33,983 nt of DNA, taken from assembly GCA_015233015.1 (NCBI GenBank), contig JADFYO010000036.1, forward strand, positions 1-33,983, read 5' to 3'. The notes beneath the pieces are model-generated. The model was not told where the DNA came from. It saw nothing but the letters and a program-made list of their open reading frames with translations, and searched no databases. Positions 12,026 to 33,812 of this stretch are shown in pieces. The DNA is from Nitrospirota bacterium. Its GTDB lineage: Bacteria; Nitrospirota; Thermodesulfovibrionia; Thermodesulfovibrionales; Magnetobacteriaceae. The translations under genes were made by a program, and so were the position numbers. Positions within the stretch are counted from its first letter, which is position 1, and each line of letters opens with the position of its first letter.

Positions 12026-14029
12026 TTAAACCGCGGCTGCCACTGCCTTTTCGGTCTCTTTGAGCCATAACAGTCTTGAGCCGTTTACCACAGGCAGGTT
12101 GGCCTTCTCTATGAATTCGGCCGCGTCTATATCCAGACCCTCTGCCTTTGCAAATGGCTTTATCGATGGGGCTGGCTTTGACTTGAGCGTTGCTTCTATT
12201 TCATTTAAATTAAGCGCAGCAATCTCTGCCCCCGACGCCTTAGCCAGGGCAATGGCTATTTCGCTGTAGGTTTTGGCCTCGCCCTGCGGCTCTACCATTT
12301 TGTACAGATGTCTCATTCTTCCCATGTAATCTACTATCGTACCTCCACGCTCTAAAAATGCGGCGGCTGGAAGCACTATGTCGGCCTCTTTGGCTAATTC
12401 GGTCAGGTGTGAGTTGGCCACTATCAGAAAGTCTGCCTTCGGCCTCTTATCTAATGGTATATCTCCGGCGGCAAAGAGCGTCTTTACGCCTCCCGATGTC
12501 ATACTCTTATAGTTTACGCCTTTTCCTGTGAGATTCAGTGCGGTTATGCCCTTTGCATTTGCCTCGATAGGCATCGAAAGCGCGGCACCCTTCATCGCTG
12601 CCACGTTTTGGGCTGCCTCAAATAGCGCCGGTGACGATATGATAACCGGCGTTTGCGCCTCTGCGTACATTACGGCGGCCTTTTCTATGTCTTCGGTGAC
12701 TGCGGCACCGCTAACGTCAAGCCCTTTGGGAAGCGCAAGGCCCTTGTCAGCGAGTGCCTTCGCAAAGTTTTTCAGCATGTCGGCCTCGCTGCCTTTTAAG
12801 ACAATATCGGCCGCGCCTGCTATTTTTACATCTTCAGAGTTAATCACGATTAGTTTGGCCTTTCTGTCTGCCTTTGTGCGCACTAAGGCATCGAGAGCAG
12901 GATACACACGCTCCCATTGATTTGGATTCAGACCGGTGACGACCATCAAATCCGCTGCCTCTAAATCGACGGCCTCACCAAGCAGCGTTGCAGCGTCGGC
13001 ATAGAGGGATACCGAGGAGTCAATGTTTTCAATGCCGGCCTTCGCGGCATAGGACTTAATGGCGGACGCGTCCTCGTTTGTAATCGAGCCGGAGGTGATT
13101 ATGCCGGCGTCTTTTCCCTTCATCTTTCCGGCGGCGATTTTGATGGCGTCATCCCATGAAGTCGCCTCAAGTTTGCCTGCTACACGTTTCATCGGCGTAA
13201 GCAGCCTGTCATGGGCGGTAAGGCTGTCAAACCCAAAACGCCCTGTGGCGCATATAAAGTGGTCTGCCCTTGCGGTGTTGCCGCCCGCCCTTATTTTCAT
13301 TATATCGTTGTCCTTCTTATATATCCTTACATCGCAGTCGCCGCTGCATGAAAGGCATACTGATTCTATCTTTTCATACTCCCACTCCCTGCCCTTTCTC
13401 CACCTGTCCGCCTCAAGCAGGGCATTTACGGGACATACGTCAACGCAGCTGCCGCAAAACGTGCAGCCCGATTCCTGAAGAGGTTTGTCGTCTGCCGTCG
13501 TTACCTTTGAACCAACCCCGCGTCCCATGAAATCCAGTACGGCCGTGCCCTGTTCCTTGCATACCCTTACGCAACGTCCGCAGAGGATACAATAGTCGGG
13601 GTCGCGCTTGATAAACGGGTTCTTGTCGTCAATGGCAAAGCCGAATTTCTTTCTGGTAAACTGGGACTCCTGTAATCCAAATTCGTAAGCATAGTTTTGC
13701 AGATTACACACGGAGGCCTTCGTACAGGTCATGCAGTCCAGCGGGTGCATGGAGAGAATCAGGTCTATTACGAATTTCCTCACTTCCTGTATCTTTTCGT
13801 TTTCAGTTACCACGTCCATGCCTTCTTTGGTCTTCATAATGCAAGCGGTCATCTGCCTGCCGCCAACCTCAACGAGACACATCCTGCACGCCCCGATGCC
13901 TTTCATCCCCTCCAGATAGCAGAGGTTAGGGATGTGAATCCCCACAGAGGCTGCCGCGTCTATCAGGCTCATACCATCGGGGACTTTATACGGCTTGCCG
14001 TTTATCTTTATGTTTACCAGGTCTGCCAT
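12026..14029 (-). CDS. NuoG-like iron-sulfur/molybdopterin-fold oxidoreductase subunit
   Basis: This 667-residue protein starts with a NuoG-type electron-wire region: a [2Fe-2S] site (Cys37, 48, 51, 63), a His-Cys site (His95, Cys99, 102, 108), two [4Fe-4S] ferredoxin motifs (Cys147, 150, 153, 157 and Cys189, 192, 195, 199), and a further cluster (Cys225, 228, 232, 260). A molybdopterin-oxidoreductase-like domain of about 400 residues follows, shorter than in NuoG or formate dehydrogenase. I see no clear Cys or Sec at the metal position, so I do not call it formate dehydrogenase; the domain may be structural, as in complex I. It is the last gene of the CODH/ACS operon and should work with the NuoE/NuoF-like subunits. 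Confidence 0.82.
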   Translation of the reverse strand: MADLVNIKINGKPYKVPDGMSLIDAAASVGIHIPNLCYLEGMKGIGACRMCLVEVGGRQMTACIMKTKEGMDVVTENEKIQEVRKFVIDLILSMHPLDCMTCTKASVCNLQNYAYEFGLQESQFTRKKFGFAIDDKNPFIKRDPDYCILCGRCVRVCKEQGTAVLDFMGRGVGSKVTTADDKPLQESGCTFCGSCVDVCPVNALLEADRWRKGREWEYEKIESVCLSCSGDCDVRIYKKDNDIMKIRAGGNTARADHFICATGRFGFDSLTAHDRLLTPMKRVAGKLEATSWDDAIKIAAGKMKGKDAGIITSGSITNEDASAIKSYAAKAGIENIDSSVSLYADAATLLGEAVDLEAADLMVVTGLNPNQWERVYPALDALVRTKADRKAKLIVINSEDVKIAGAADIVLKGSEADMLKNFAKALADKGLALPKGLDVSGAAVTEDIEKAAVMYAEAQTPVIISSPALFEAAQNVAAMKGAALSMPIEANAKGITALNLTGKGVNYKSMTSGGVKTLFAAGDIPLDKRPKADFLIVANSHLTELAKEADIVLPAAAFLERGGTIVDYMGRMRHLYKMVEPQGEAKTYSEIAIALAKASGAEIAALNLNEIEATLKSKPAPSIKPFAKAEGLDIDAAEFIEKANLPVVNGSRLLWLKETEKAVAAAV

Positions 14030-14060
14030 TAACTCCTCCTTAATGTAAAATATATGTTTT

Positions 14061-14651
14061 TCAAACCTCTACGGTCTCTAATACTTTTTTATCGGTTATT
14101 TCTATTGCCCCGTATTTGCATACCCTGACACACTCGCCGCATCTGGTACATCTCTTATCCACTATCTCATAGGGGATAAAGCCTGAGAAACGGCCAACCT
14201 TCTTCTCTCCCAGTATAGCGAAGTCCTTACAAACTAGTCTGCACTCGTCACAGGATACACACTTATCGGGGACAACCTTGTAGAGAATACTTCCTTTACA
14301 CTCCCTGTCAGGGCAGCCGCCGGCAACGTGTATGTCGTAGATTTCAGGGGTCTTCTCTAATGTGTCTATGATGAACTTTGCCGTATCCTTGCCCTTTTTG
14401 CACATCGACGCTTCCAGCATCAACGGGGCAACCTGCCTTATAACCTCCAAATCGCGCGGCGTTGCCTCAGCGCCTGAGAGTTTTAAAAATCTTATCCTCA
14501 TCTCGTAGCTTCCCATCGGACACGGCAGACACCTTGCGCACATCGGGCCGTCTATAAACTCGTTGAGAAACAGCAGAGCCTTTTGAACAATACACTTAAA
14601 CTGGTTCGTATCCTCTGTTATCTCTTTCATGTCTTTCTCTTTATCAGCCAT
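14061..14651 (-). CDS. Ferredoxin with NuoF-C-terminal-like domain
   Basis: This 196-residue protein has an N-terminal helical part with Cys38, 41, 44 and 84, arranged C-x2-C-x2-C...C like the N3 [4Fe-4S] site of NuoF (which reads CGKCPPC...C in the neighbouring gene). Two ferredoxin [4Fe-4S] motifs follow (Cys131, 134, 137, 141 and Cys168, 171, 174, 178), with an extra pair at Cys113 and Cys118. It therefore looks like the C-terminal third of NuoF plus its ferredoxin tail released as a separate protein. It lies between the NuoF-like and NuoG-like genes, 4 bases after the former and 31 before the latter. Its likely role is electron transfer inside that complex or to CODH; no exact family name is known to me. 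Confidence 0.8.
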   Translation of the reverse strand: MADKEKDMKEITEDTNQFKCIVQKALLFLNEFIDGPMCARCLPCPMGSYEMRIRFLKLSGAEATPRDLEVIRQVAPLMLEASMCKKGKDTAKFIIDTLEKTPEIYDIHVAGGCPDRECKGSILYKVVPDKCVSCDECRLVCKDFAILGEKKVGRFSGFIPYEIVDKRCTRCGECVRVCKYGAIEITDKKVLETVEV

Positions 14652-14655
14652 TGCC

Positions 14656-16551
14656 CTATCTCCCTATCCCCGTTTTTTCCCTGGTATATCTCGTGCCTTT
14701 CCCTATTTTTACTGCCCCTATCGGGCACGCCATAAAGCAGGCCTTACATTTCGTACACATTGACTGGTCTATGAAATATGACCTTCTGGTCTCTTTTACA
14801 GCATGGAAGGCACAGGCCTGTTTACACAGACCGCAGAGAAAACACTCCGAGTGCTCGATGGTAAAAGAACCCAGCCCGCTGCACACCTTTGCGCGGCAGT
14901 ACTTATCATGGACATGCTCTTCGTACTCTTCTCTGAAATATTTCAGTGTGGAGAGTATCGGATTTGGGGCGCCTTGCCCGAGGCCGCAAAGAGAGCCTTT
15001 TTTGACAAGACGGGCAATCTTTTCAAGACGTTCTATGTCGCCAGGAACTCCCTTGCCCGTTGTTACCCTCTCCAGTATCTCAAGCATCTGATAAGTGCCA
15101 ATCCTGCACGGGGGACATTTACCGCATGACTCCTCCTTTGTAAACGACAGGAAGAACTTCGCGACATCCACCACGCACGTATCCTCGTCCATTACGACCA
15201 TGCCGCCCGAGCCCATCATCGACCCGGCCTTCGTCAGCGAATCAAAGTCAACCTTCAGATCTAAAAACTCCTCTGGCAGACATCCCCCTGACGGGCCTCC
15301 GGTCTGCACCGCCTTGAACTTCTTCCCATCGAGTATGCCGCCGCCTATGTCAAAGATTATCTCTCTAAGGGTAATCCCCATCGGCACTTCCACAAGCCCG
15401 GTGTTCTTTACCTTGCCTGTTAATGCAAAAACCTTAGTGCCGGGGGAATTTTCTGTACCTATGCCCTTAAACCACGCCGCACCGTTTTCAATTATAGGGG
15501 GAACACAGGCATACGTCTCGATGTTGTTGAGATTGCTTGGAAAGCCCCAGACGCCGCCGCCCGGTTCGGACAACCGTGGCGGGCGCGGCCTCGGAAATCC
15601 CCTGTCGCCCTCTATCGACGCCACCAGTGCCGTTGATTCACCGCATACAAACGCCCCTGCCCCTTCTCTTACATCTATTTGGCAGGAGAAGTCCGTACCC
15701 ATTATGTTTTTGCCCAGTAATCCAATTTCCTCTGCCTGCTTAATGGCAAGTTTCAGGTTAACCACAGCAAGCGGATACTCGTGCCTCACGTAAACGAACC
15801 CGTACTGTGCCCCTATGGCATAAGCACACAGCAGCATTCCCTCGAGAAGCCCGTGCGGGTCGCCTTCCATAATAGACCTGTCCATGAACGCACCGGGGTC
15901 GCCTTCGTCGCCGTTTGCTATGACGAATTTTATCGTGCCGGGGGCCTTCTTGGAGTGCCTCCATTTCTGTCCCGCGGGGAAACCTGCACCGCCTCTGCCC
16001 CTGAGGTTTGCATTATCCACCTCTTGCAGGACCTGGTCTGGGGTCATCGCACTAAGGGCCTTTGCCAGTGCCGTGTAGCCGCTGACGGCAATGTAGTGGT
16101 AAATCTGGCGCGGGTCTATAAGGCCGTTATTTTTCAGGGCTATTCGCACCTGTTTTTTGTAATACGGGACGGTTTCCATCATTTCACACGGTTGCGTGGC
16201 GACGGAGTCCCTGTAGAGGAGTTTTCTTACGGGAAATCCTCCAGATATAGTAGATGAAACGATCTCATGGGCGTCAGAGTTTTTGACCTTCTGGTAGTAA
16301 TAGCCCCACGGCTCTACCTTCATTACCGGGCCTTGCTGGCAAAATCCCTGGCAGCCGGTCTTCACTATCTCTACTGACTTATGTTCCGCTCCAAGCTCAC
16401 GCTCTAAGTCTGCCACTACCTTAGTCGAGCCGGAGGCAGTGCAGGCAGTACCGCAGCACATCCTTATTCGCGGCACTCCCTCTTTAAACACCTCTTCTTT
16501 GAGTAGCAGCCTGAGATTATTGAATTCCTCTATGCTTTTAATTTTCTCCAT
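14656..16551 (-). CDS. NuoF-like NAD(P)H:acceptor oxidoreductase subunit (HndC/HydB type)
   Basis: From ATG 16551 this is 631 residues. An N-terminal thioredoxin-like [2Fe-2S] domain (Cys32, 37, 67, 71) precedes the flavin/NADH core with GRGGAGFPAG (185-194) and the FMN-contacting ANGDEGDPGAF. The N3 [4Fe-4S] site follows (Cys476, 479, 482, 522), then two C-terminal ferredoxin clusters (Cys570, 573, 576, 580 and Cys599, 602, 605, 609). This layout is that of the flavin subunit in electron-bifurcating hydrogenases and formate dehydrogenases rather than of complex I. It would oxidise NADH or NADPH, or run in reverse. I chose the start with GAGGG upstream; ATG 16569 would add six residues. It overlaps the NuoE-like gene by 14 bases. 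Confidence 0.9.
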   Translation of the reverse strand: MEKIKSIEEFNNLRLLLKEEVFKEGVPRIRMCCGTACTASGSTKVVADLERELGAEHKSVEIVKTGCQGFCQQGPVMKVEPWGYYYQKVKNSDAHEIVSSTISGGFPVRKLLYRDSVATQPCEMMETVPYYKKQVRIALKNNGLIDPRQIYHYIAVSGYTALAKALSAMTPDQVLQEVDNANLRGRGGAGFPAGQKWRHSKKAPGTIKFVIANGDEGDPGAFMDRSIMEGDPHGLLEGMLLCAYAIGAQYGFVYVRHEYPLAVVNLKLAIKQAEEIGLLGKNIMGTDFSCQIDVREGAGAFVCGESTALVASIEGDRGFPRPRPPRLSEPGGGVWGFPSNLNNIETYACVPPIIENGAAWFKGIGTENSPGTKVFALTGKVKNTGLVEVPMGITLREIIFDIGGGILDGKKFKAVQTGGPSGGCLPEEFLDLKVDFDSLTKAGSMMGSGGMVVMDEDTCVVDVAKFFLSFTKEESCGKCPPCRIGTYQMLEILERVTTGKGVPGDIERLEKIARLVKKGSLCGLGQGAPNPILSTLKYFREEYEEHVHDKYCRAKVCSGLGSFTIEHSECFLCGLCKQACAFHAVKETRRSYFIDQSMCTKCKACFMACPIGAVKIGKGTRYTREKTGIGR

Positions 16552-17044
16552 GTGCCACGCCCTCTTCATCTATCACATTAATAAGGTGTTTTATCTTCTT
16601 AGGGCCTATCGTTCCCATAACCTCTTCGTTAATCGTTACCACAGGGGCCAGGCCGCAGCAGCCTACGCATCCTACCGTCTCGAGCGTCAGCTTAAGGTCC
16701 GGCGTGGTCTGTCCAGCCTTTATATGGTAACGGTCTTTGAGGGCGTTTTCCACTTTTGCCCCCCCTCTGACGTGACAGGCCGTTCCCGTACAGACCCTCA
16801 CTATCTTTTTGCCGCGCGGTGAGAAGTGGAACTGCTTGTAAAAACTCGCCACGCTGTATATCTCAGCCAGAGGGATAGAGAGTTTCCTCGACAACGCCCT
16901 TAAAATGTCCTCGGGCAGGTAACCGTTTTCCAACTGTATCTTATGCAGAGTGGAAACAAGGATTCCCTTTCTCTTGTCATGGCCGTTTAAGACCTCACTG
17001 ACAAGGCCTATCGACTCATTGACATCTATTGCATCTATATTCAT
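16538..17044 (-). CDS. NuoE-like [2Fe-2S] thioredoxin-fold subunit
   Basis: This 168-residue protein has the NuoE/HndA pattern: an N-terminal helical bundle (about 1-75) and a thioredoxin-fold [2Fe-2S] domain with CTGTAC (Cys85, 90) and CVGCC (Cys126, 130). It partners NuoF-type flavoproteins, accepting or delivering single electrons next to FMN. It lies 13 bases after the CODH gene with GGGGGG as ribosome site, and its end overlaps the NuoF-like start, so the two are co-translated. Confidence 0.92.
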   Translation of the reverse strand: MNIDAIDVNESIGLVSEVLNGHDKRKGILVSTLHKIQLENGYLPEDILRALSRKLSIPLAEIYSVASFYKQFHFSPRGKKIVRVCTGTACHVRGGAKVENALKDRYHIKAGQTTPDLKLTLETVGCVGCCGLAPVVTINEEVMGTIGPKKIKHLINVIDEEGVAHGEN

Positions 17045-17057
17045 TATATCCCCCCTG

Positions 17058-19037
17058 TCAGGACGCGGCCTGTTCCTTTTCGAATTTTCTTCTGTCTTCC
17101 ATAGTCATCAGCACCCTCTCGGCACCGAATTTGCCCTGCTCATATTTTTTCAGTTTCAGGGCGGCTCTCTTTTTATCTATCGTGGCAAGCGTCTTTTCGA
17201 ATATCTCTTTCGGGTCGTTTATGAATTCGAGTTTGCCTCCGAATCTCTTTTCCCACAGCTCGGTCTTTATCTTTTTGACCACGCTGCTTGCCTCAACCGG
17301 GCTTTCTGAACCGAATATTATATGCATCCCCGAGGCAACGCAATATGTGCCTATGGCAAGGGCCTTCTCACTCATCCACTCGGGGGCAATTCCCACGGCT
17401 GGCAAATCAGATATATCGTCGCCAAGTCCGCCCTCTTCTACCATCGCCGAGGCTATCGTCAATATCCTCGAATTGTCCACACACGCCCCAAGATGTAAAA
17501 TTGGCGGTATTCCTATGGCCACGCATACCTCTCTGAGGCCAGGGCCGGCCATCTCCAGCGCAGTCTCAGGCGTCATATATCCAGCCTTCGCGCACGCGGC
17601 CGCCCCACAGCCCGTAGATACCACCAGAATGTCGTTCTTGATGAACTCCGTTGCCAGATAGTTGTGGTAACTGTCCTGCATAATGCGGGGATTGTTGCAG
17701 CCGACAACGCCTACGACACCCCTTATGCGCCCGGCCATTATGGCGTCGTTAAGAGGCCTGAATGAGCCTCTGTAACTGCCGCCCTGCATGTACTCTATAT
17801 ATTCGTGGGAGAAACCGGCTATCAACGGTTCAAAGCTCGACACGCGGCTTCCCTCTGTCGTGCGGTTTGGGTAGTTGTCGCAGGCAAGCCTCAGTATCTC
17901 TCTGGCGACTTCCTTTGCCCTGTGCTCATCGTATTGAATATGTATGGCGTCTATCATTTTACCTTTGACCGAGGTGGTTATGACCTTGGTGTGGAACTTT
18001 TTCGCAACCTGAGCAATGGCGGGCATAATGCACTGCACGTCAACGACCATAGCCTCGGCAAGGCCGGTCATTATGGACAGCTCCTGGTTTAAAAACCCTC
18101 CGGCAGTTGGAATGCCATGCCTCATCATCACTTCGTTTGCGGTACAGCACATACCAACGAGGTTTATTCCCTTTGCGCCTTTGCTTTTGGCATACTCTAC
18201 CATTGCCGGTTCGGACGATACATCGACTATCATCTCGGCAAGCGTGGGTTCGTGGCCGTGAAGGACAAGATTGACCTCGTCTCCTTTCATCACGCCTATG
18301 CTGGCCGTTGCATGAACCGGCGTTGGGGTGCCAAATAGTATGTCCGTGATGTCGGTGCTGAACATACTGCCGCCCCAGCCGTCGGCAAGGGATACCTTTA
18401 CGGCGGCCATCATAAGATTTTCAGGGTCCTGGTCAACGCCCATATTGGTACGGTGCATGGCCTCGCAGACCTCCCTGTCTATCCCGCGGGGGATAACTCC
18501 CCATTTTTTCCATATCTCCTGGCGCTTCTTCGGTGCCCTTTTGACATATGAGATCTCGCCCTTTTGGCGGCCAAAGTTCTCGATTATCTTCTCCGCTACT
18601 TCCTTTCCAATCTGCGCCGTGGTCTTTCCCTCTGTGGGAATATCGAGAATACCGGCAACTCTTTTCAGTTTCTTTACATCCTTAATCTGAAAATCAGGTG
18701 CCTCTCCGGTTGCTGCCTCAAGGAGCGTATACGCCATATCTCTGGCGTGGTCGCTGTGTGCGGCAGTCCCCGCGGCGCACATCCTCAGAAAGTTCCTTGC
18801 CGATACCACGGGCAGCGTTGCCCCGCATATACCGGAGGCCGTCTCTTCGGCGTCAGGGCCTACCAGTCTGCAAGGCCCCATGAAGCATATCTTACAGCAG
18901 GCACCCGTGTGGCCAATAGGACAGGGCTTCAACGACTCCGCCCTGTCAAAGGCGGACTTTATTCCATGGTCATGGCCCCACTCCAAAATCTCTTCGGCCA
19001 CTTTATCGACACTTTTTAAATTCTTTATCTCTTCCAT
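17058..19037 (-). CDS. acsA: Ni-containing carbon monoxide dehydrogenase (CODH/ACS alpha-type catalytic subunit)
   Basis: This 659-residue enzyme interconverts CO2 and CO and feeds CO to acetyl-CoA synthase. Cys39 and Cys47 match the inter-subunit D cluster; Cys48, 51, 56 and 71 match the B cluster. Candidates for all C-cluster ligands are present: a His in HGHEPT (260-262), and cysteines in GMCCTANE, VQCIMP, VGCNNPR, STGCGAAAC and LGACVDN. It should therefore be active. Length matches bacterial CooS/AcsA. It sits between acsB and the NuoE-like gene; a 13-base hairpin (CAGGT-CAA-ACCTG, 19068-19080) lies just upstream, after acsB. No nickel-insertion gene (cooC/acsF) is present in the operon. 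Confidence 0.96.
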   Translation of the reverse strand: MEEIKNLKSVDKVAEEILEWGHDHGIKSAFDRAESLKPCPIGHTGACCKICFMGPCRLVGPDAEETASGICGATLPVVSARNFLRMCAAGTAAHSDHARDMAYTLLEAATGEAPDFQIKDVKKLKRVAGILDIPTEGKTTAQIGKEVAEKIIENFGRQKGEISYVKRAPKKRQEIWKKWGVIPRGIDREVCEAMHRTNMGVDQDPENLMMAAVKVSLADGWGGSMFSTDITDILFGTPTPVHATASIGVMKGDEVNLVLHGHEPTLAEMIVDVSSEPAMVEYAKSKGAKGINLVGMCCTANEVMMRHGIPTAGGFLNQELSIMTGLAEAMVVDVQCIMPAIAQVAKKFHTKVITTSVKGKMIDAIHIQYDEHRAKEVAREILRLACDNYPNRTTEGSRVSSFEPLIAGFSHEYIEYMQGGSYRGSFRPLNDAIMAGRIRGVVGVVGCNNPRIMQDSYHNYLATEFIKNDILVVSTGCGAAACAKAGYMTPETALEMAGPGLREVCVAIGIPPILHLGACVDNSRILTIASAMVEEGGLGDDISDLPAVGIAPEWMSEKALAIGTYCVASGMHIIFGSESPVEASSVVKKIKTELWEKRFGGKLEFINDPKEIFEKTLATIDKKRAALKLKKYEQGKFGAERVLMTMEDRRKFEKEQAAS

Positions 19038-19086
19038 TTAAAGGCTCTCCTTATTTAGGGCTGTTCACAGGTCAAACCTGCCTTTG

Positions 19087-21285
19087 TTAAAACATCGACG
19101 GCATAGAAAGCGCCGGATGTTCAACTGACGTAAGGAACTCAAGGAGTTTTTCACCGTCTTCGGCTATCGTCTCATCGGCTATTTTGTCCAGGAAATCAGG
19201 AATGCCCTCCTCTTCTGCCCTTGGTTGAAGGCCTTCCTTAACTCTTTCCTTTAGGGCCTTCGTCATCCATACCACGCGTTTCAGGCCGCCGTCACCAAAG
19301 AGAAACTTCCTGCTGGTGATGAAATTCACCCCTATGCCCATAAACCCGGGCGTCTGTACGCCGCCGCCCACAGTCCCGGCAAGCGATGAGAACTTCATCC
19401 CTATCGGCGTCATCCCCGCGTGTCCCCTTTGCACTATCATAACCCCGTTGGCCTCCGGCACTACGCACATAATACACTCAAAGCACCCGCACGAGGTCAT
19501 CGGATTTTCCATTATCGTATAGGCGTTCATAGTATCGAGGGCGCCGCCGGTTGAGGCCCTTATGTAATCATCGACACCCGTCCACCGGCCATATTTAGGG
19601 TCAATCACTTCACCCTTTATTATAGGCTGATTACCGCCCGATGGGTCTATGCCAAAGGCGGCCTTGCAGTCAAGCCAGTTATACGCACCGCAGAGGCCGA
19701 GGCGCTCAGGCGTTATTACGCATGTGTGGCTTGGCGCAAAGGACTGGCACAGCAGACACGAATAAAACTGCTCCACGGATTCGTCTGTCAGCGAGCCTAA
19801 TCTCTGATCCCTTTCTTTCCATGTCTTGCGTGCCTCTTCGCGCTGCTTTATGACCTCTGCTTCATCCATAAACAGCGTCACCTGAACCTTATCCACAATG
19901 GCCTTGAACCTGCTATGGGTCATCGTGGAGTGAATCTTTGCTATGTCTTCGAGGGTAAAACCCTCGGCCTTGGCCGACTTGCTTACCCTGAGCCAGTTAA
20001 CGTCGCGCTGGCCCATGTGCCATATGCCCTGTCCCTCGTTTATATTATGATGAAGTTTTCTCTCCATTATCGGCTCGTAGTCGGGCTGCATCTCCCTGCC
20101 CGCTACCTCAACAAGGATGCCCATAGGCATCGAGCCGCCGGCCTCGTAACGCTCCTTCCAGTTTTCCCCTTTTATGATTATCTTCCCGTCTTCTATCTCG
20201 TCAAGCTCACGGCCCTTTATAAACTCAAACGCCGGCGTTCTGTTACCGCCGAACTCTATGAATGTATCCTCTTTTCTTATCCTCTCGCCCTCAAACGCGG
20301 GGCCATAGGCAATAGGAATTGGCGGCTTGTGGGATACGATCTTAAGTCCTCTGACCTCTATGGCCTTAGCGACTATTTTCGCGTGGTCAAACTCCTTGTC
20401 AACCTCTTCATATGTACACACACCCGTGGGATGAACTACGGGGACGTCGGAGTCGCAAATCGCTGGGAATCCCATATTTATTGCCCCGGCGCCGGTTGCC
20501 CATTTCACATCGTCAAGCGGACCCAGCGGCAGTGCAAAGGCAAACACCCTGTCCTTCGTATATTTCAGACAGCCCTTGTAATCCCCCGGCTTTACGCCGC
20601 CGTAAATCATCGCCGCCCTCACCGCCCAGTCAAGGGCATAGAGCGTGTGTTCGGTCTGCGTCCCAAGCGGCACTACATAGACATCCCAGCCAAGCTCCAC
20701 CTTCTTTCTCTGTAGCTGTCTCGTTATCGTCTCGCCGTTTGACATACCGGAAAGAAATACCAGTATGTTTTTCTCCTGCAATTCCCTCACAATACGGGCC
20801 GCGGTGTCATCGTCGGGGGCTGCCCCGATAATTGCCGCAAAGCCCGGCATTCTGCCGTCAACCAGCGCAATACCGAGGTTCCTCTGTATCGTGTCGGTTA
20901 TAAACCCGTTATAGACTAATCCGGTTTCAGGGTCTTTCTCCGGCTCAAGGCCCTCCAGATATCTCATCGCAAGCCATATCTCTTCGGCAAACAGGGTTGC
21001 CATACCGCAGTCTAATGCCTCGCCAAGATAGGGCGTCCATTCCTTGTCAGCCGGCTCCGGGTGCAGCAACGCCTTTGCCATCATCAGGGCCTCTTTCATA
21101 TCCTTCAGCGTCTTTACCGCAAATCCAGTCATCGCATATATCATCGGCAGATAAAACGCCGTATCCGGAAACTCGAACACATAGTCATCGCCCTTTTCGG
21201 CAATATGCTTAGATAACAGATGCTCGGCATTGTTGAAAACTTTATGCGCACCCCTTATGGCGCCGGATGCTATGATCTTTGACAT
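19087..21285 (-). CDS. acsB: Acetyl-CoA synthase, CODH/ACS beta subunit
   Basis: This 732-residue enzyme joins CO, a methyl group from the corrinoid protein and CoA into acetyl-CoA. The A-cluster ligands are all conserved: Cys510, 513, 522 and 532 bind the cubane, and Cys599 and Cys601 (in TSCGCFEC) hold the proximal and distal nickel. The spacing equals that of the Moorella enzyme (506, 509, 518, 528, 595, 597) with a constant offset of four. The N-terminal CODH-contact domain is present, so this is the full-length bacterial form. A GGAGG ribosome site precedes ATG 21285. Confidence 0.97.
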   Translation of the reverse strand: MSKIIASGAIRGAHKVFNNAEHLLSKHIAEKGDDYVFEFPDTAFYLPMIYAMTGFAVKTLKDMKEALMMAKALLHPEPADKEWTPYLGEALDCGMATLFAEEIWLAMRYLEGLEPEKDPETGLVYNGFITDTIQRNLGIALVDGRMPGFAAIIGAAPDDDTAARIVRELQEKNILVFLSGMSNGETITRQLQRKKVELGWDVYVVPLGTQTEHTLYALDWAVRAAMIYGGVKPGDYKGCLKYTKDRVFAFALPLGPLDDVKWATGAGAINMGFPAICDSDVPVVHPTGVCTYEEVDKEFDHAKIVAKAIEVRGLKIVSHKPPIPIAYGPAFEGERIRKEDTFIEFGGNRTPAFEFIKGRELDEIEDGKIIIKGENWKERYEAGGSMPMGILVEVAGREMQPDYEPIMERKLHHNINEGQGIWHMGQRDVNWLRVSKSAKAEGFTLEDIAKIHSTMTHSRFKAIVDKVQVTLFMDEAEVIKQREEARKTWKERDQRLGSLTDESVEQFYSCLLCQSFAPSHTCVITPERLGLCGAYNWLDCKAAFGIDPSGGNQPIIKGEVIDPKYGRWTGVDDYIRASTGGALDTMNAYTIMENPMTSCGCFECIMCVVPEANGVMIVQRGHAGMTPIGMKFSSLAGTVGGGVQTPGFMGIGVNFITSRKFLFGDGGLKRVVWMTKALKERVKEGLQPRAEEEGIPDFLDKIADETIAEDGEKLLEFLTSVEHPALSMPSMF

Positions 21286-21377
21286 CTTTTCCTCCTTAAT
21301 CTCTGACTTAACCTATGGAAACAGTAATTTAGTACCGCATCCTGTTTATAACTTGTATATTCACCGTGCACGGGGCT

Positions 21378-22721
21378 TCACGCAGTCCGTGATTTCAGAT
21401 AGCTTGGCAGCGCGTTAGCCTCTCTTGGGCCGACGGTTATCTTCCATCCCTCGAGTTTCTCCTCCAGGGCGCCGCTTAATATAGCCACATAGCCCGGAAT
21501 TATCAACTCCTTATTTGATATTTTACTCTCCACGCCGCTTTCCTTTATGAAGGCGGCTATCTTTGAAGCGGTAAACTTTCCCGCCGCCCATGCGGTCAGC
21601 ACCGAAAGCCCCTCGCAATCCATTATCGCCAGCCACGTTGGAACCTTGCTGTTTTCCACCTCACCGGCCACAATAAAGTATGTCAGAGAGAAGTTCGTAG
21701 TCACCAGAAGCGGTGAGTTCGCCTGTGGATTCCCTATTTCATAGACCTTTTGCTCCACCTGCATCGGCACCTGAGGGTCGGTGTAAATGTTCTGTCTCAA
21801 GGTGAACATGACCAGATTCTTCCACTTCTCAGCACTGGACAATACCACCACCGAGGCGTATTTGGCAATTCCCAGCCCGGCAATCAGGGTCTCAAGCATA
21901 TTGTTCTCTCTTATGGCTATGTTTATCATAGGGTAGCCGAGGCTCTTATTGCCTTTTTTGAGGGCAGCACGCCTGATGTACGTGTTATGCTCTATCATCT
22001 CTTTGGCCGTCTTTGCCCCTGCGTCAAGCACTATGTCCTCAACACCTAAACCCTTGACCTTGTCCGACAAAGTGGACAGGGCGTCAAGACCGTTGGCCTT
22101 TATGCCGAGTGAGGCGCCGCTTGCCTTTGCAAGTTTTGCCATTTCCTCCGCGTTTGCCTCTGTGGCGCCGTAAAGGAGCGGCTTCTTGCCCGCAAAATGG
22201 GAAATAGCCGCCTTGGCCGCGTCAACATTTTCGGTACTCAGGATAACTGCGACGGCAGGCGCCTTTTCGGCGGCGGCCCTGGCCAGGGCCTCAAACTTCC
22301 CCGCGTCGTTCGATTCGTTTATCAGACAAAGGGCGTCTATCTTTAACTTCTGCCCTACCCTGTCAATCTCCGAGGTCAGACAGTCGTTTATCTTAGCCGC
22401 TACAGCGTCGCCGCTTTCGGTGTCTTTTATCGCAATGGCCAATATGGACGGATTTACAAACTTCTTTTCATGGCGAAACATGACCGTCTCCTCGCCAACC
22501 TTAACGGCGCGCGCCCCGGCTCCTATCGTAATCGGCCTTATGGGCGGGGCTGAGGCGTCGCCGAGCTTCTGCTTTGCGTCCTCCGAGACATCGGGACAGG
22601 CGTCGAGAGAGACCTTCCTCTGCGCCAGCTGCATGGCATAGGCAAGGCATGTCGGAAACCCGCACTTCTTACAGTTTGTCTTGGGCAGCATTTTAAATAT
22701 TTCAACTCCAGTTAATGCCAT
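21378..22721 (-). CDS. acsC: Corrinoid iron-sulfur protein large subunit (CODH/ACS gamma)
   Basis: This 447-residue protein carries the methyl group on cobalamin to acetyl-CoA synthase. The N-terminal [4Fe-4S] motif is intact (Cys17, 20, 25, 42, in TNCKKCGFPTC). A TIM-barrel middle region and a C-terminal corrinoid-binding region follow. Length fits AcsC. It sits between acsD and acsB, with GGAGG before ATG 22721. Its activity requires cobalamin; no cobalamin riboswitch was seen upstream. Confidence 0.96.
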   Translation of the reverse strand: MALTGVEIFKMLPKTNCKKCGFPTCLAYAMQLAQRKVSLDACPDVSEDAKQKLGDASAPPIRPITIGAGARAVKVGEETVMFRHEKKFVNPSILAIAIKDTESGDAVAAKINDCLTSEIDRVGQKLKIDALCLINESNDAGKFEALARAAAEKAPAVAVILSTENVDAAKAAISHFAGKKPLLYGATEANAEEMAKLAKASGASLGIKANGLDALSTLSDKVKGLGVEDIVLDAGAKTAKEMIEHNTYIRRAALKKGNKSLGYPMINIAIRENNMLETLIAGLGIAKYASVVVLSSAEKWKNLVMFTLRQNIYTDPQVPMQVEQKVYEIGNPQANSPLLVTTNFSLTYFIVAGEVENSKVPTWLAIMDCEGLSVLTAWAAGKFTASKIAAFIKESGVESKISNKELIIPGYVAILSGALEEKLEGWKITVGPREANALPSYLKSRTA

Positions 22722-22758
22722 CTGTTAACCTCCAGAGATTTAGTCTAAATATTTTTTG

Positions 22759-23700
22759 TTACATAAGCTCAGTGATAAACGCATCGACTGCCGCCGCCGC
22801 ATCGGGATGCCTCATTATGAGAAGCCCCGCCCCGGCCATCAGCAGTGCCGCCGCCGTCTGCGCCTCCCATCCTATGCCGCGCTCCTTCATAGCACCCCAC
22901 GCCGGAAGTATATCCTCTGAGGCAGACACCTCTTTTATCTTCCATACGTACATGCCGACATCCCCCAAAATGGGCTGCTGCATTGTGGCGTCGTTTTGCG
23001 TGAGTGCCGCAAGTCTTATCCTCTCCATAACCGTGTATGTATATTCGAGGCCATAGCCGAGGGCAGAACACATCGGGTCTATTATTACCTTCTCTTTATT
23101 AAATCCCAGCTGAGTTATCATTATATTGAGCTGCTTGGAAAGATTGATATCCAGTTCAGACATGGCTATGAGCAGGTGGTCATGAGCCATAGCGGCCGCG
23201 GCGACTGTCTTATAGTTTGCCTCCTGAGCCTTGCCGATTACACAGTTTCGGCCCTTGGCAACCTCTGCCGCCCTGACGAGGACGTCGGCATCCTTCTCGG
23301 CATGGTTGCTGCCAAGTATTATAAGAGGAACGCTAATCGCGTCCAGCACCTTTTTTACCGTTTCGGCGGCCTCGGCCGCGGAACGATTGCCGTTGTCCGG
23401 GTGTGTGCTGGCAAGGCGAAGTGCTACCGCCTTTGCGTTTAGTTTTTCCACACAGTATTTAGCCCATTTAACAGGGTCGTCTGAGACCCCGGCATATACC
23501 TCTCTTACCGTATCCGGCCAATCTACCGGCGCAATGTCCAGCACATCGAATGCTATGACCGGCCTGTTCGGTACTACGCCCTCGAAGCCATGAAACGGTA
23601 ATACGTTCTCGCCGCCTACTGTGACGGCCTTCTCACCGTTTCCCATGGTTACTGAATATACCTTACCGGTATTTGTCTCTTTTGGCGGCGTGAATGCCAT
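22759..23700 (-). CDS. acsD: Corrinoid iron-sulfur protein small subunit (CODH/ACS delta)
   Basis: This 313-residue TIM-barrel protein pairs with AcsC and together they bind cobalamin. Family-typical segments include FDVLDIAPVDWPDTV, ALRLASTHPD and IDPMCSALGYGLEYTY. Length matches AcsD. The ribosome site GGAGGGG lies directly before ATG 23700. It follows acsE by 81 bases, the largest gap but one within the acs genes. Confidence 0.96.
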   Translation of the reverse strand: MAFTPPKETNTGKVYSVTMGNGEKAVTVGGENVLPFHGFEGVVPNRPVIAFDVLDIAPVDWPDTVREVYAGVSDDPVKWAKYCVEKLNAKAVALRLASTHPDNGNRSAAEAAETVKKVLDAISVPLIILGSNHAEKDADVLVRAAEVAKGRNCVIGKAQEANYKTVAAAAMAHDHLLIAMSELDINLSKQLNIMITQLGFNKEKVIIDPMCSALGYGLEYTYTVMERIRLAALTQNDATMQQPILGDVGMYVWKIKEVSASEDILPAWGAMKERGIGWEAQTAAALLMAGAGLLIMRHPDAAAAVDAFITELM

Positions 23701-23781
23701 TTACCCCTCCATATTCCCAAAATTTAATGTCTTGCCGCTTCCGCGGTATTTATTATTTAACCATTTCCGCTTTTTAGTACG

Positions 23782-24561
23782 CTACATCTCCAGATACGAG
23801 TGCGCGTACAGGGTCTTGTTCATTAAAATATCAACCGTTTTTACCGTAGTTATTATCTCAGCCGGGTCAGCAATGGCAGCTGACAGGCCTTCATATATCA
23901 GGAGCGTTAGAAAGTGCTCGTTCAGTATGTGCCTGATGTGCTTGGGACAACCGTTGGATACGTTGCTGAGACCTACGACGGTCTTCATCGGCGGGTCGTT
24001 CAGGTCCTGAAACATCTTTATCGCCTCAACCACCTTCAGCGCCTGGTCCTGAGTAGTAGCCGCCTGAAGCACCAGCGGGTCGAGATATATATGCTCCATA
24101 GGGATGCCGTACTCAGTTGCCCGTCCCATCATCTCGGCGGCTATGGCGGCACGCTCTTCGGCGTCTGCGGGAAGTCCTCCCTTGCCTACCGTAAGGGCTA
24201 TAACGTCACAGTTATATTTTGCCGTCAGCTCAAGTATTGGGAAACGCTCAGGGTCGTTCGACGTAGAGTTAATCAACGGCCTTCCCCATTCGTTATTGTG
24301 TACTTTCAGCCCCTTCTCCAGCGCCTCGTAATTGGTCGTATCCAGACAAACCGGAGCAGGGACGGCCTCCTGTATGGTTGTTACCATCCACTCCATTAAG
24401 TCCTCCATTCCTTCGGCAGGACCAATGTTAGCGTCTATCATACCCGCGCCCTTTTCAAACTGGGCCTTTGCTATCTCCTGAATCGGCCCTTTGTCACGTT
24501 TCATCATCGCTTCCCTGACACGTTTTGCTATTATACTGAGCTTCTCTCCTATTATAAGCAT
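23782..24561 (-). CDS. acsE: Methyltetrahydrofolate:corrinoid/iron-sulfur protein methyltransferase
   Basis: This 259-residue pterin-binding TIM-barrel enzyme moves the methyl group from methyltetrahydrofolate to the cobalt of AcsCD. Typical segments are the start LIIGEKLSI, DANIGPAEG, PVCLDTTNYEALE, LINSTSNDPER and GLSNVSNGCP. Length matches AcsE. It is the first gene of the operon, with AAAGGAGAG before ATG 24561. No folate-branch genes (fhs, folD, metF) are in the window. Confidence 0.96.
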   Translation of the reverse strand: MLIIGEKLSIIAKRVREAMMKRDKGPIQEIAKAQFEKGAGMIDANIGPAEGMEDLMEWMVTTIQEAVPAPVCLDTTNYEALEKGLKVHNNEWGRPLINSTSNDPERFPILELTAKYNCDVIALTVGKGGLPADAEERAAIAAEMMGRATEYGIPMEHIYLDPLVLQAATTQDQALKVVEAIKMFQDLNDPPMKTVVGLSNVSNGCPKHIRHILNEHFLTLLIYEGLSAAIADPAEIITTVKTVDILMNKTLYAHSYLEM

Positions 24562-29440: not shown

Positions 29441-29480
29441 AATCATACTAAGATGCAATCATACTAAGATGCAATCATAT
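29441..29480. repeat. 16-bp tandem repeat, about 2.5 copies
   Basis: AATCATACTAAGATGC is repeated exactly at 29441-29456 and 29457-29472, then partially. It lies next to the palindromic element copy B, whose edge also contains AATCAT. Confidence 0.85.
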
Positions 29481-29503: not shown

Positions 29504-29589
29504 GAATCATCCTGAGCCTGTCGAAGGATTACCGATTTATGGAGCAATGCGAAATGAGGGCGCATCCTTCGACAGGCTCAGGATGATTC
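29504..29589 (-). repeat. Short palindrome-ended repeat element, copy B (inverted relative to copy A)
   Basis: The 26-bp ends (29504-29529 and 29564-29589) are identical to those of the element at 11765-11851. The 34-base centre matches the reverse complement of copy A's centre at about 23 of 35 positions, including ATTTCGCA and AAATC. The two copies are thus the same element in opposite orientation. It occupies the gap between the GGDEF/EAL and ubiB-like genes. Confidence 0.85.
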
Positions 29590-29641
29590 AAAATTGTTTA
29601 CCTCATTCAAAATTGCTTACTTCATTCAAAATTGCTTACTT
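29585..29641. repeat. 19-bp tandem repeat, three copies
   Basis: CATTCAAAATTGCTTACTT occurs at 29604-29622 and 29623-29641, with a variant first unit at 29585-29603 that includes the last bases of the palindromic element. There are no spacers, so this is not a CRISPR. Confidence 0.9.
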
Positions 29642-29664
29642 CTATGAGTGCAGTTGGCATTTAG

Positions 29665-31804: not shown

Positions 31805-31884
31805 ACCCCTGTGGAAACGATTGAAAATGAGACAAACTGAATAAAAATGGACACTGAATAATCACTTCAGGGGGTATTATATTT

Positions 31885-33282
31885 ATGTGGAAAAGTTTTG
31901 CTAAGGGTTTATTAGTATCGATGACGTTTCTCGCAATGCTTGTGCCCACACTGTCTCGTGCCGATAACGGATGTACATGGAATAGCTCAGGCGTGACTTC
32001 TTCTAAGGGATGGACTGCTGTGACGTCAAGCTCTGACGGCACTAAACTGGTTGCCGCCAGCAAATATGGAGATATCTGGATGTATTCAAACGGCACATGG
32101 ACGGCAACCGGCGCAAACGGCGGGCTGGACAACTGGACTGCCGTGGCGTTGAATTCAGACGGCACTAAACTGGTTGCCGCCGCTTATGGTGGAGATATCT
32201 GGACGTATTCTAACGGCATATGGCTATCCAATAATGTTAACGGCGGCAAGAGAAAATGGGCTGCTGTGGCGTCTGATTCAACCGGCACTAAGCTGGCTGC
32301 CGCTGACGCTTATGGAGATATCTGGACGTATTCGGGAGGCAAATGGACAGCTAACAATGTCAACGGCGGCTATAACAACTGGAGCAGTATTGCGTCAAGC
32401 TCAGACGGCACTAAGCTGGCTGCCGCTGCTAATAGCGGAGATATCTGGACGTATTCAAGCGGCATATGGACGGCAAATCAGGTTTATGGAGGCAACAACG
32501 ATTGGAGCAGTATAGCGTCAGATTCAACGGGCACCAAGCTGATTGCGGCCGTTAATGACGATGCTGTCTGGACAGACTCCAGCGGCGTATGGACGCCTGT
32601 TTCGACTTTAGCAAAAAAAGACAATTTTCACGCAGTGGCGTCCAGTTCAGACGGCACTATGCTGGCTGCCGCTGCCGATGGCGGAGATATCTGGACGTAT
32701 TCAAGCGGCACATGGACGGCGGGTAATGTAAATGGCGGCGGCAACAATTGGAGCAGTATAGCGTCAAGCGCAGACGGCACTAAGCTGATTGCCGCTATCG
32801 GCTCCAATAACGGCGCTGTCTGGACTGGGACTTGTTCTGCGTACTATGGAATTGCAAGTTCGTGGATTAACGCGATATATAATGAATATTCCTCGTACTT
32901 TGGAACAAAATCCGGTACCATTTCTACATTAACAACGACAGGCGGCACATACTTTATCCAATGGTTTACTAATATGAGGGCAATTTTGGCATGGAACGAT
33001 GGCTATTTATATGCCTATGACGGCACTAGCTGGAACGGCATTAATATCGCATGGGTCAATGGCCCGGATGTTACCGCAGGCTGGCGAATAAGCCAGGTAT
33101 TTAATCAATATGCCTCAATATTGTTAGCGAAATCGGGCAGTTTGATTACATTAACAACGACAACCGGCACATACTATGTGCAATGGTACACCAACGGGGC
33201 TGCCCTTGTGGCATGGACAAACGGGTACATCTATGGCTATTACAATACCACATGGTACTATCTTGGAGTGAAATGGGAATAG
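31885..33282 (+). CDS. Secreted seven-repeat propeller-like protein with C-terminal twin repeat
   Basis: I do not recognise a named family. The 465-residue protein has a signal peptide (cleavage expected after Ala26). Seven repeats of 41 residues follow (W43 onward; the last is shortened), each reading roughly W-x-x-[IV]-A-S-S-x-D-G-T-K-L-x-A-A-x-x-x-G-D-I-W-T-Y-S. This suggests a seven-bladed beta-propeller. Residues just before repeat 1 look like the missing outer strand of blade 7. Cys30 and Cys317 flank that seam and could lock it by a disulfide. The C-terminal part (about 322-465) holds two further repeats of about 65-70 residues, rich in Tyr, Trp and Thr. It is probably surface-exposed or extracellular; no anchor is visible. 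Confidence 0.8.
   Translation: MWKSFAKGLLVSMTFLAMLVPTLSRADNGCTWNSSGVTSSKGWTAVTSSSDGTKLVAASKYGDIWMYSNGTWTATGANGGLDNWTAVALNSDGTKLVAAAYGGDIWTYSNGIWLSNNVNGGKRKWAAVASDSTGTKLAAADAYGDIWTYSGGKWTANNVNGGYNNWSSIASSSDGTKLAAAANSGDIWTYSSGIWTANQVYGGNNDWSSIASDSTGTKLIAAVNDDAVWTDSSGVWTPVSTLAKKDNFHAVASSSDGTMLAAAADGGDIWTYSSGTWTAGNVNGGGNNWSSIASSADGTKLIAAIGSNNGAVWTGTCSAYYGIASSWINAIYNEYSSYFGTKSGTISTLTTTGGTYFIQWFTNMRAILAWNDGYLYAYDGTSWNGINIAWVNGPDVTAGWRISQVFNQYASILLAKSGSLITLTTTTGTYYVQWYTNGAALVAWTNGYIYGYYNTTWYYLGVKWE
32011..32835 (+). repeat. 123-bp coding repeats inside the propeller gene
   Basis: Units begin at 32011, 32134, 32257, 32380, 32503, 32626 and 32749. The stretch GGAGATATCTGG followed by a near-identical (A/G)TATTC-type segment recurs in units 1, 2, 3, 4 and 6, with synonymous sites conserved. 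Unit 5 has diverged and unit 7 is incomplete. Confidence 0.9.
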
Positions 33283-33296
33283 ACCGAGAAGGACGC

Positions 33297-33812
33297 TTAG
33301 TCCTCGAAAACGTCCATGATATTGACTTGCAGCCCATCGATGACTTTAGAGGAAACCACACCTTCGATCTCTGCAATGGAGTGTGTCTTATATCTATCGC
33401 CCTCAATGGTTAAGACCTCGATGGCCTGTAACTCCGGTAAGACGATCCAGTACTCCGGCACCCTGTACTTCTCGTAAATAGCCCTCTTCACGACCATATC
33501 CCTTTCGTAAGTCCCGGTGGATATAATTTCACATACCATGTCTGGAACGCCTCTTATCCAGTCCTGCTCAATGACCGCATTTTCCTTTCTGACAAACAAT
33601 ATGTCGGGTTGAAGCCGGTTCACTCCTTCCTCGAAGATTACGTCAAGAGGGGAATAGTGCAATTTGCCAAGTTTATTCTTTCTGACGTGGCGGCGTATGA
33701 TGTCATATAGATTCTCACTAACTACCTGATGTCTTCTAAATGGACTAGGCCCCATGATTTCCTCACCGTTGATGATTTCCGTTAAGTCTAAGTCTCTTTC
33801 AAGAGTTTCCAT
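33297..33812 (-). CDS. Uma2-family (DUF820) PD-(D/E)XK-fold protein
   Basis: This 171-residue protein matches the Uma2 family: LQPDILFVRKE with the family Asp, VCEIISTGTYERD with the Glu, the downstream Lys/Tyr segment, and VPEYWIVLPE. The fold is that of restriction-type nucleases, but activity of Uma2 proteins is largely unproven and the family is often scattered and multicopy. It converges on the propeller gene, 14 bases apart. Its upstream region runs directly into the terminal repeat. Confidence 0.88.
   Translation of the reverse strand: METLERDLDLTEIINGEEIMGPSPFRRHQVVSENLYDIIRRHVRKNKLGKLHYSPLDVIFEEGVNRLQPDILFVRKENAVIEQDWIRGVPDMVCEIISTGTYERDMVVKRAIYEKYRVPEYWIVLPELQAIEVLTIEGDRYKTHSIAEIEGVVSSKVIDGLQVNIMDVFED

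Follow-up and report, generated by a model that had tools for sequence, protein, structure and literature searches.

The gene at positions 31885 to 33282 of the window (the whole 33,983-nt stretch of a Nitrospirota contig that was analysed) encodes a protein in which seven repeats of one kind are followed by two of another. It raises the question of what this second kind of repeat is, and what it does for the protein that carries it. We delimited the parts of the gene as follows.

31885..33282, plus strand: coding sequence P0001 (open reading frame), 465 aa, predicted exported seven-blade propeller with twin C-terminal module
31870..31874, plus strand: possible ribosome-binding site GGGGG, about 10 nt upstream of the ATG, inferred from sequence
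31885..31962, plus strand: putative signal peptide, residues 1-26, with a type I-like site following S-R-A (by eye, orthologue alignment and model)
31966..32007, plus strand: N-terminal strand, residues 28-41, predicted to complete blade 7; includes Cys30 (31972-31974) (model strand 30-39 and repeat register)
32008..32130, plus strand: blade unit 1 (repeat spacing)
32131..32253, plus strand: blade unit 2 (repeat spacing)
32254..32376, plus strand: blade unit 3 (repeat spacing)
32377..32499, plus strand: blade unit 4 (repeat spacing)
32500..32622, plus strand: blade unit 5, irregular in the window protein and in both orthologues (repeat register and alignment)
32623..32745, plus strand: blade unit 6 (repeat spacing)
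32746..32835, plus strand: blade unit 7, three strands, with Cys317 (32833-32835) at its end (repeats, model and register)
32866..33054, plus strand: tail module unit 1, residues 328-390, helix and five strands (tail profile and model)
33088..33276, plus strand: tail module unit 2, residues 402-464 (tail profile and model)

The N-terminus is in keeping with the secretion that had been predicted: residues 1-26 resemble a signal peptide with a type I-like cleavage site, placed by eye and by alignment after S-R-A in the window protein and after S-H-A in its orthologues, and they have pLDDT values below 50 in the AlphaFold2 model. At the other end, the second tail unit stops one residue before the end of the protein. 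Directly past the gene, on the minus strand (33297-33812), lies a member of the Uma2 family (putative restriction endonuclease-like; Pfam E 3.4e-26). Two intergenic tandem arrays are found upstream, at 29441-29479 (16 nt, 2.4 copies, 100% match) and at 29586-29642 (19 nt, 3 copies, 94%). The translations of a long minus-strand run at 12026-24561 resemble a carbon monoxide dehydrogenase/acetyl-CoA synthase (Wood-Ljungdahl) cluster that includes electron-bifurcating subunits.

The first kind of repeat forms, by prediction, a complete ring. The seven units of 41 aa (repeat family D2) start at residues 42, 83, 124, 165, 206, 247 and 288, with an exact spacing of 123 nt in all seven copies, and Tandem Repeats Finder reports the array with period 123 and score 494. 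It had been proposed that seven such repeats amount to a full propeller, and structure prediction had been named beforehand as the check on ring closure. AlphaFold2 modelled the whole protein with a mean pLDDT of 83.2, from an input alignment of 27 rows in which the propeller was covered by the window protein and one orthologue only; the strands fall in seven groups, the modelled ring is closed, and structure searches agree. Foldseek and VIA-align match residues 29-316 to seven-blade propellers of WD40 type, the nearest solved chain being 5yzv_A (VIA-align Z 32.2, rmsd 2.5, 273 aligned). Blade 7 contributes three strands of its own and an insertion, and takes its fourth from the N-terminal strand (residues 30-39), as indicated by both the model and the repeat register. 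The model thus shows a closed seven-blade beta-propeller, Asp-box/WD40-like, in which the N-terminal strand completes blade 7.

The ring shares with the WD40 and Asp-box (sortilin, PSII/Ycf48-like) superclusters the seven four-strand blades of about 41 residues and the closure by an N-terminal strand. 5yzv_A is the nearest solved chain, and near paralogues of the window protein reach the BNR_6 cut-off: one paralogue, 46% identical over residues 22-464, scores 27.4 against a cut-off of 27. The window protein differs in that no propeller family is above the Pfam cut-off, and no WD40 (PF00400) row appears at E up to 1. It has neither an SxDxGxTW motif nor a match to a BNR model; its turns read S-x-G-x-W instead, without the Asp of the Asp-box. 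As a fold, the ring with its repeats belongs to a known class, and the propeller alone is ordinary. Related units also occur in a giant ORF (a 5578-aa open frame; L121:5023-19899, genome G003, contig C77) with 12 propeller units, some of them 63-69% identical to the window protein.

The DNA of the array had been taken to record a recent homogenisation of the repeats, with unit 5 having drifted. The shared core and shared synonymous sites were confirmed. The stretch GGAGATATCTGG occurs in units 1, 2, 3, 4 and 6, with units 5 and 7 deviating there, and over all units the same synonymous codon is used in 0.706 of 367 unit-pair comparisons of codons for the same residue, versus 0.321 expected from the codon usage of 15 window genes or 0.343 from that of the gene itself. 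When only units 1-4 and 6 are compared, agreement at synonymous codons is 0.728 (235 comparisons) within the window ring, which is more than between window units and the units at the same positions of the orthologues (0.626 of 123 for G005, 57% identical in protein; 0.562 of 112 for G002, 54% identical). The orthologues behave alike, with agreement of 0.555 (G005) and 0.604 (G002) within each ring versus 0.500 between the two; these counts over pairs of units depend on one another. This much favors exchange among units.

The recency of the event is another matter. Mean DNA identity among units 1-4 and 6 is only 0.717; seven units are present in the window protein and in the G005 and G002 orthologues alike, so that the comparison of repeat number across relatives, suggested along with the prediction, gave seven in each of the three; and in the alignment all three show an irregular unit 5 and the insertion in unit 7. 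Unit 5 thus did not drift newly in the window protein. Because DNA identity is about 72%, the number of units is constant and units 5 and 7 are specific to their positions, we read the array as a ring whose seven units are old and have since exchanged sequence in patches, rather than as a recent amplification. Highly similar blades are known in propellers from many lineages, according to the available text of PMC9218822. The window ring resembles the highly repetitive, recently amplified propellers described there in its repeated blades and in the mean protein identity of units 1-4 and 6 (0.637, near the 60% median cut given in that text), and differs from them in its lower identity over all seven units (0.555) and in the position-specific units kept between species.

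A further proposal was that Cys30 and Cys317, the only cysteines of the 465-aa protein, close the ring. Their positions suit this role: the repeat register aligns Cys317 with Ser274 and Cys30 with Gly275 of blade 6, adjacent residues of its C-D turn. Since the two cysteines thus occupy neighboring positions of the blade 7 C-D turn, a disulfide at the seam is plausible. The pair is, however, missing from both orthologues, which have Trp and Tyr (G005) and Trp and Thr (G002) at these places, and from every other homologue examined. We suggest that in the window species a Cys30-Cys317 disulfide may plausibly lock the seam across the chain break. That Cys30 serves instead as a lipoprotein anchor is very improbable: it is the fourth residue past the likely cleavage site, as judged by eye, but the D-N-G preceding it does not fit a lipobox, and the orthologues carry Trp in its place.

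The second kind of repeat proved to be the distinctive part of the protein. The distinct twin-repeat C-terminus that had been noticed is recovered by a tail profile at residues 328-390 and 402-464. The unit has 63 aa, comes mostly in pairs, and is aromatic-rich and almost uncharged (over 135 units, 23.9% F/W/Y, 1.8% K/R and 2.7% D/E). Searching with the C-terminal repeat alone, as had been advised, revealed how widely it is used. In the organism's own genome (3.78 Mb in 149 contigs, 99.23% complete), a protein search with the window protein gave 30 places; within the stretches around these matches a strict tail model recovered 47 units, spread over 23 ORFs, and a later model placed the tail on 24 distinct ORFs. 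A Pfam scan of 21 of these 24, the window protein among them, showed that at least six propeller classes bear it. Its propeller partners are SBBP (four ORFs, three with DUF7948), RCC1 (three), Vgb-lyase, NHL and PQQ/BamB (one each) and BNR-like rings, and further partners are a subtilase, an Ig I-set protein and DUF3443. InlB-type repeats (PF18998) often intervene. Of the 26 own-genome ORFs with InlB-type repeats, 19 also bear the tail, as do five of the seven SBBP ORFs.

No Pfam row was above cut-off over the tail in the 21 own-genome ORFs scanned. NCBIfam gave no row for the window protein and none above cut-off over the tail in 10 further proteins, and PHROGs rows for the tail all had E above 0.04. 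The tail is a separate, lineage-specific domain, uncatalogued, present in 24 ORFs of a single genome, where it is joined to several exported folds unrelated to each other. A search of the open PMC literature found no description of it, and no paper in which both Magnetominusculus and a propeller appear.

The domain is confined to a narrow group of bacteria in the collections searched. It is present in all seven genomes of the genus Ca. Magnetominusculus, and, in a sample of 395 genomes from the phylum searched at E 1e-6, in six, three from the genus and three from its family. A GTDB-wide pattern scan, which relies on short exact motifs that distant relatives can escape, returned 25 loci confined to four MAGs. 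A tblastn search of mobile elements (50,697 phage and 72,556 plasmid records) at E 0.01 gave no match, and none of 107 pattern matches in viral contigs was confirmed. Related propellers of a sister genus (g3) have another tail at their end, one with spaced cysteines: in six sequences (L025, L027, L030, L035, L040, L044) a C-terminal domain of about 130 aa starts near LPYLHTNTNN, and Pfam gave no match over it in the five that were scanned. The ring is thus common to these lineages, and the tail varies between them.

The position of the tail was quantified over 74 distinct tail ORFs from loci of nine genomes, 72 of which have a complete 3' end. Among these 72, the tail ends within one residue of the protein end in 57, at 2-10 residues in nine, and is internal in six; two units are present in 60, three in six and one in six. 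The last residue is K or R in 43 of the 57 ORFs that end within one residue of the tail. In two DUF3443 orthologues the tail lies near the N-terminus, shortly past the signal peptide.

Modelled alone, the tail reaches a pLDDT of 90.7, with a helix and five strands per unit, twice. The top two VIA-align rows belong to one protein, the LGFP domain of Corynebacterium glutamicum mycoloyltransferase A (MytA; 6sx4, 6swz), with Z 6.7, rmsd 8.8-9.1 and 95-97 residues aligned; the next row has Z 4.9. A VIA-align Z below 8 can reflect a common arrangement, and families that it leaves unlisted are possible relatives too. By the description available in PMC11299179, an LGFP unit has about 54 residues with a helix and three to four strands; the modelled topology of the tail fits that description, although the structural match (Z 6.7, rmsd 8.8) is weak. 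The same text cites pull-downs of LGFP to peptidoglycan-arabinogalactan (PMC11299179).

At the level of sequence profiles, homology to LGFP is unsupported: HHalign of the tail against LGFP gave a P-value of 0.049 and a probability of 1.1, and 49 of 200 column-shuffled decoys scored as high. PF08310 has no row for the window protein and matches none of 20 genomes, with two control genomes positive. Foldseek of the tail model against the PDB had no match reaching E 0.001; Polo-box and CPAP, at the top of that list, were rejected (E 3e-3 or worse, TM-scores near 0.2), and the two rows of a PDB sequence search with the tail profile (best E 0.14) were taken as chance. Against viral models, the 30 best Foldseek rows, none of them significant, include two actinophage amidases; one of these amidases, that of Gordonia phage Gsput1, ranks 28 (E 0.18), and the Gsput1 endolysin has an LGFP-like stretch (E 1e-2).

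The tail and the LGFP repeats (PF08310; corynebacterial mycoloyltransferase A, actinophage lysins) would share, going by the model, an N-terminal helix followed by an antiparallel sheet; they have in common tandem copies at the C-terminus, conserved aromatics and exported carriers, and LGFP is the best structural match of the tail. They differ in that the tail lacks a PF08310 match and profile-profile support, has five strands and 63 residues, usually comes in two copies versus five for LGFP, and belongs to another kind of cell envelope. Because there is no PF08310 match and HHalign does no better than with shuffled columns, we limit the claim to function: the tail would work like an LGFP domain, rather than be one.

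On this analogy the tail most likely attaches exported propellers to the cell envelope, and we give an even chance to the fuller reading, in which the exported ring and twin tail form a non-covalent attachment to the envelope or a surface polymer that presents the propeller. The window protein would leave the cytoplasm by the Sec pathway and probably cross the outer membrane by type II secretion; a gene for the type II secretin GspD is present in the genome, and both routes are proposed for these bacteria in the available text of PMC8353452. The twin tail would then hold the protein non-covalently on the envelope or a surface polymer, as LGFP does on the corynebacterial wall. The organism is Gram-negative-like and would therefore lack the wall polymer of LGFP, which counts against the analogy. 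Because about two dozen other exported proteins, propellers and some enzymes, carry the tail, the cell appears to display a varied set of them through one common tail, with the propeller as the presented, ligand-binding part. The ring-plus-tail family is in this respect a variant of known shared attachment tails. A bolder version, possible but doubtful, is that this genus of magnetotactic Nitrospirota evolved a display tag of its own for universal use. The twin aromatic module could then be joined to nearly any exported domain and be recognized by a single envelope polymer or by the stand-alone twin-module proteins, and dozens of propellers, each replaceable by another, would appear on the surface under one attachment code. 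If the tail is for attachment, it is a portable surface-attachment module and a structural cousin or look-alike of the LGFP repeats outside Actinomycetota, and sequence alone suffices to identify a large part of the surface proteome in this uncultured magnetotactic lineage.

Other functions would account for parts of the same evidence. The tails may bind one another, with stand-alone twin-tail proteins as adaptors, and assemble an extracellular sheath or matrix of propellers. The near-uncharged, aromatic-rich units would suit such contacts, and exported proteins of 202-224 aa with little beyond the twin module do exist in three of the seven genus genomes (G006, G005, G001), each encoded by a gene divergent to an adjoining tail-bearing propeller gene (L127:4896-5501, L129:3510-4181, L125:1016-1669). 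The own genome, however, lacks a close stand-alone copy, the best match being 42% to a 587-aa frame, and we consider assembly unlikely. Less probable still is a C-terminal sorting signal for an outer-membrane secretion machine. The type IX secretion CTDs offer a parallel, as one C-terminal domain common to many unrelated exported proteins, and the tail does close the protein within one residue in most ORFs, usually with K or R last. Yet its C-terminal position is not obligatory, and because two DUF3443 orthologues carry it near the N-terminus, a purely C-terminal signal is argued against; moreover, none of 11 tail proteins scanned matched an NCBIfam sorting-tail model. A search for SprA_N gave no match in the own genome, with the control genomes equally without a match, so its outcome points neither way. 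We likewise assign a low probability, slightly below that of a sorting signal, to an inert stabilizing or spacing domain whose family expanded by duplication without a special role. For 16 of the 23 own-genome tails, the nearest among the tails compared comes from that genome too, as lineage-specific duplication would produce, but one tail has been maintained on unrelated domains in seven genomes, despite differing N-terminal parts.

Two further observations concern the setting of tail genes. In sister genera a papain-type protease that also has a lectin-like domain bears the tail, as does an Lcl_C protein (L124:2366-4324, L123:1745-3313). Five tail genes lie on one strand within 20 kb at L048 (G000 C65:1-20000), a likely site of duplication and exchange.
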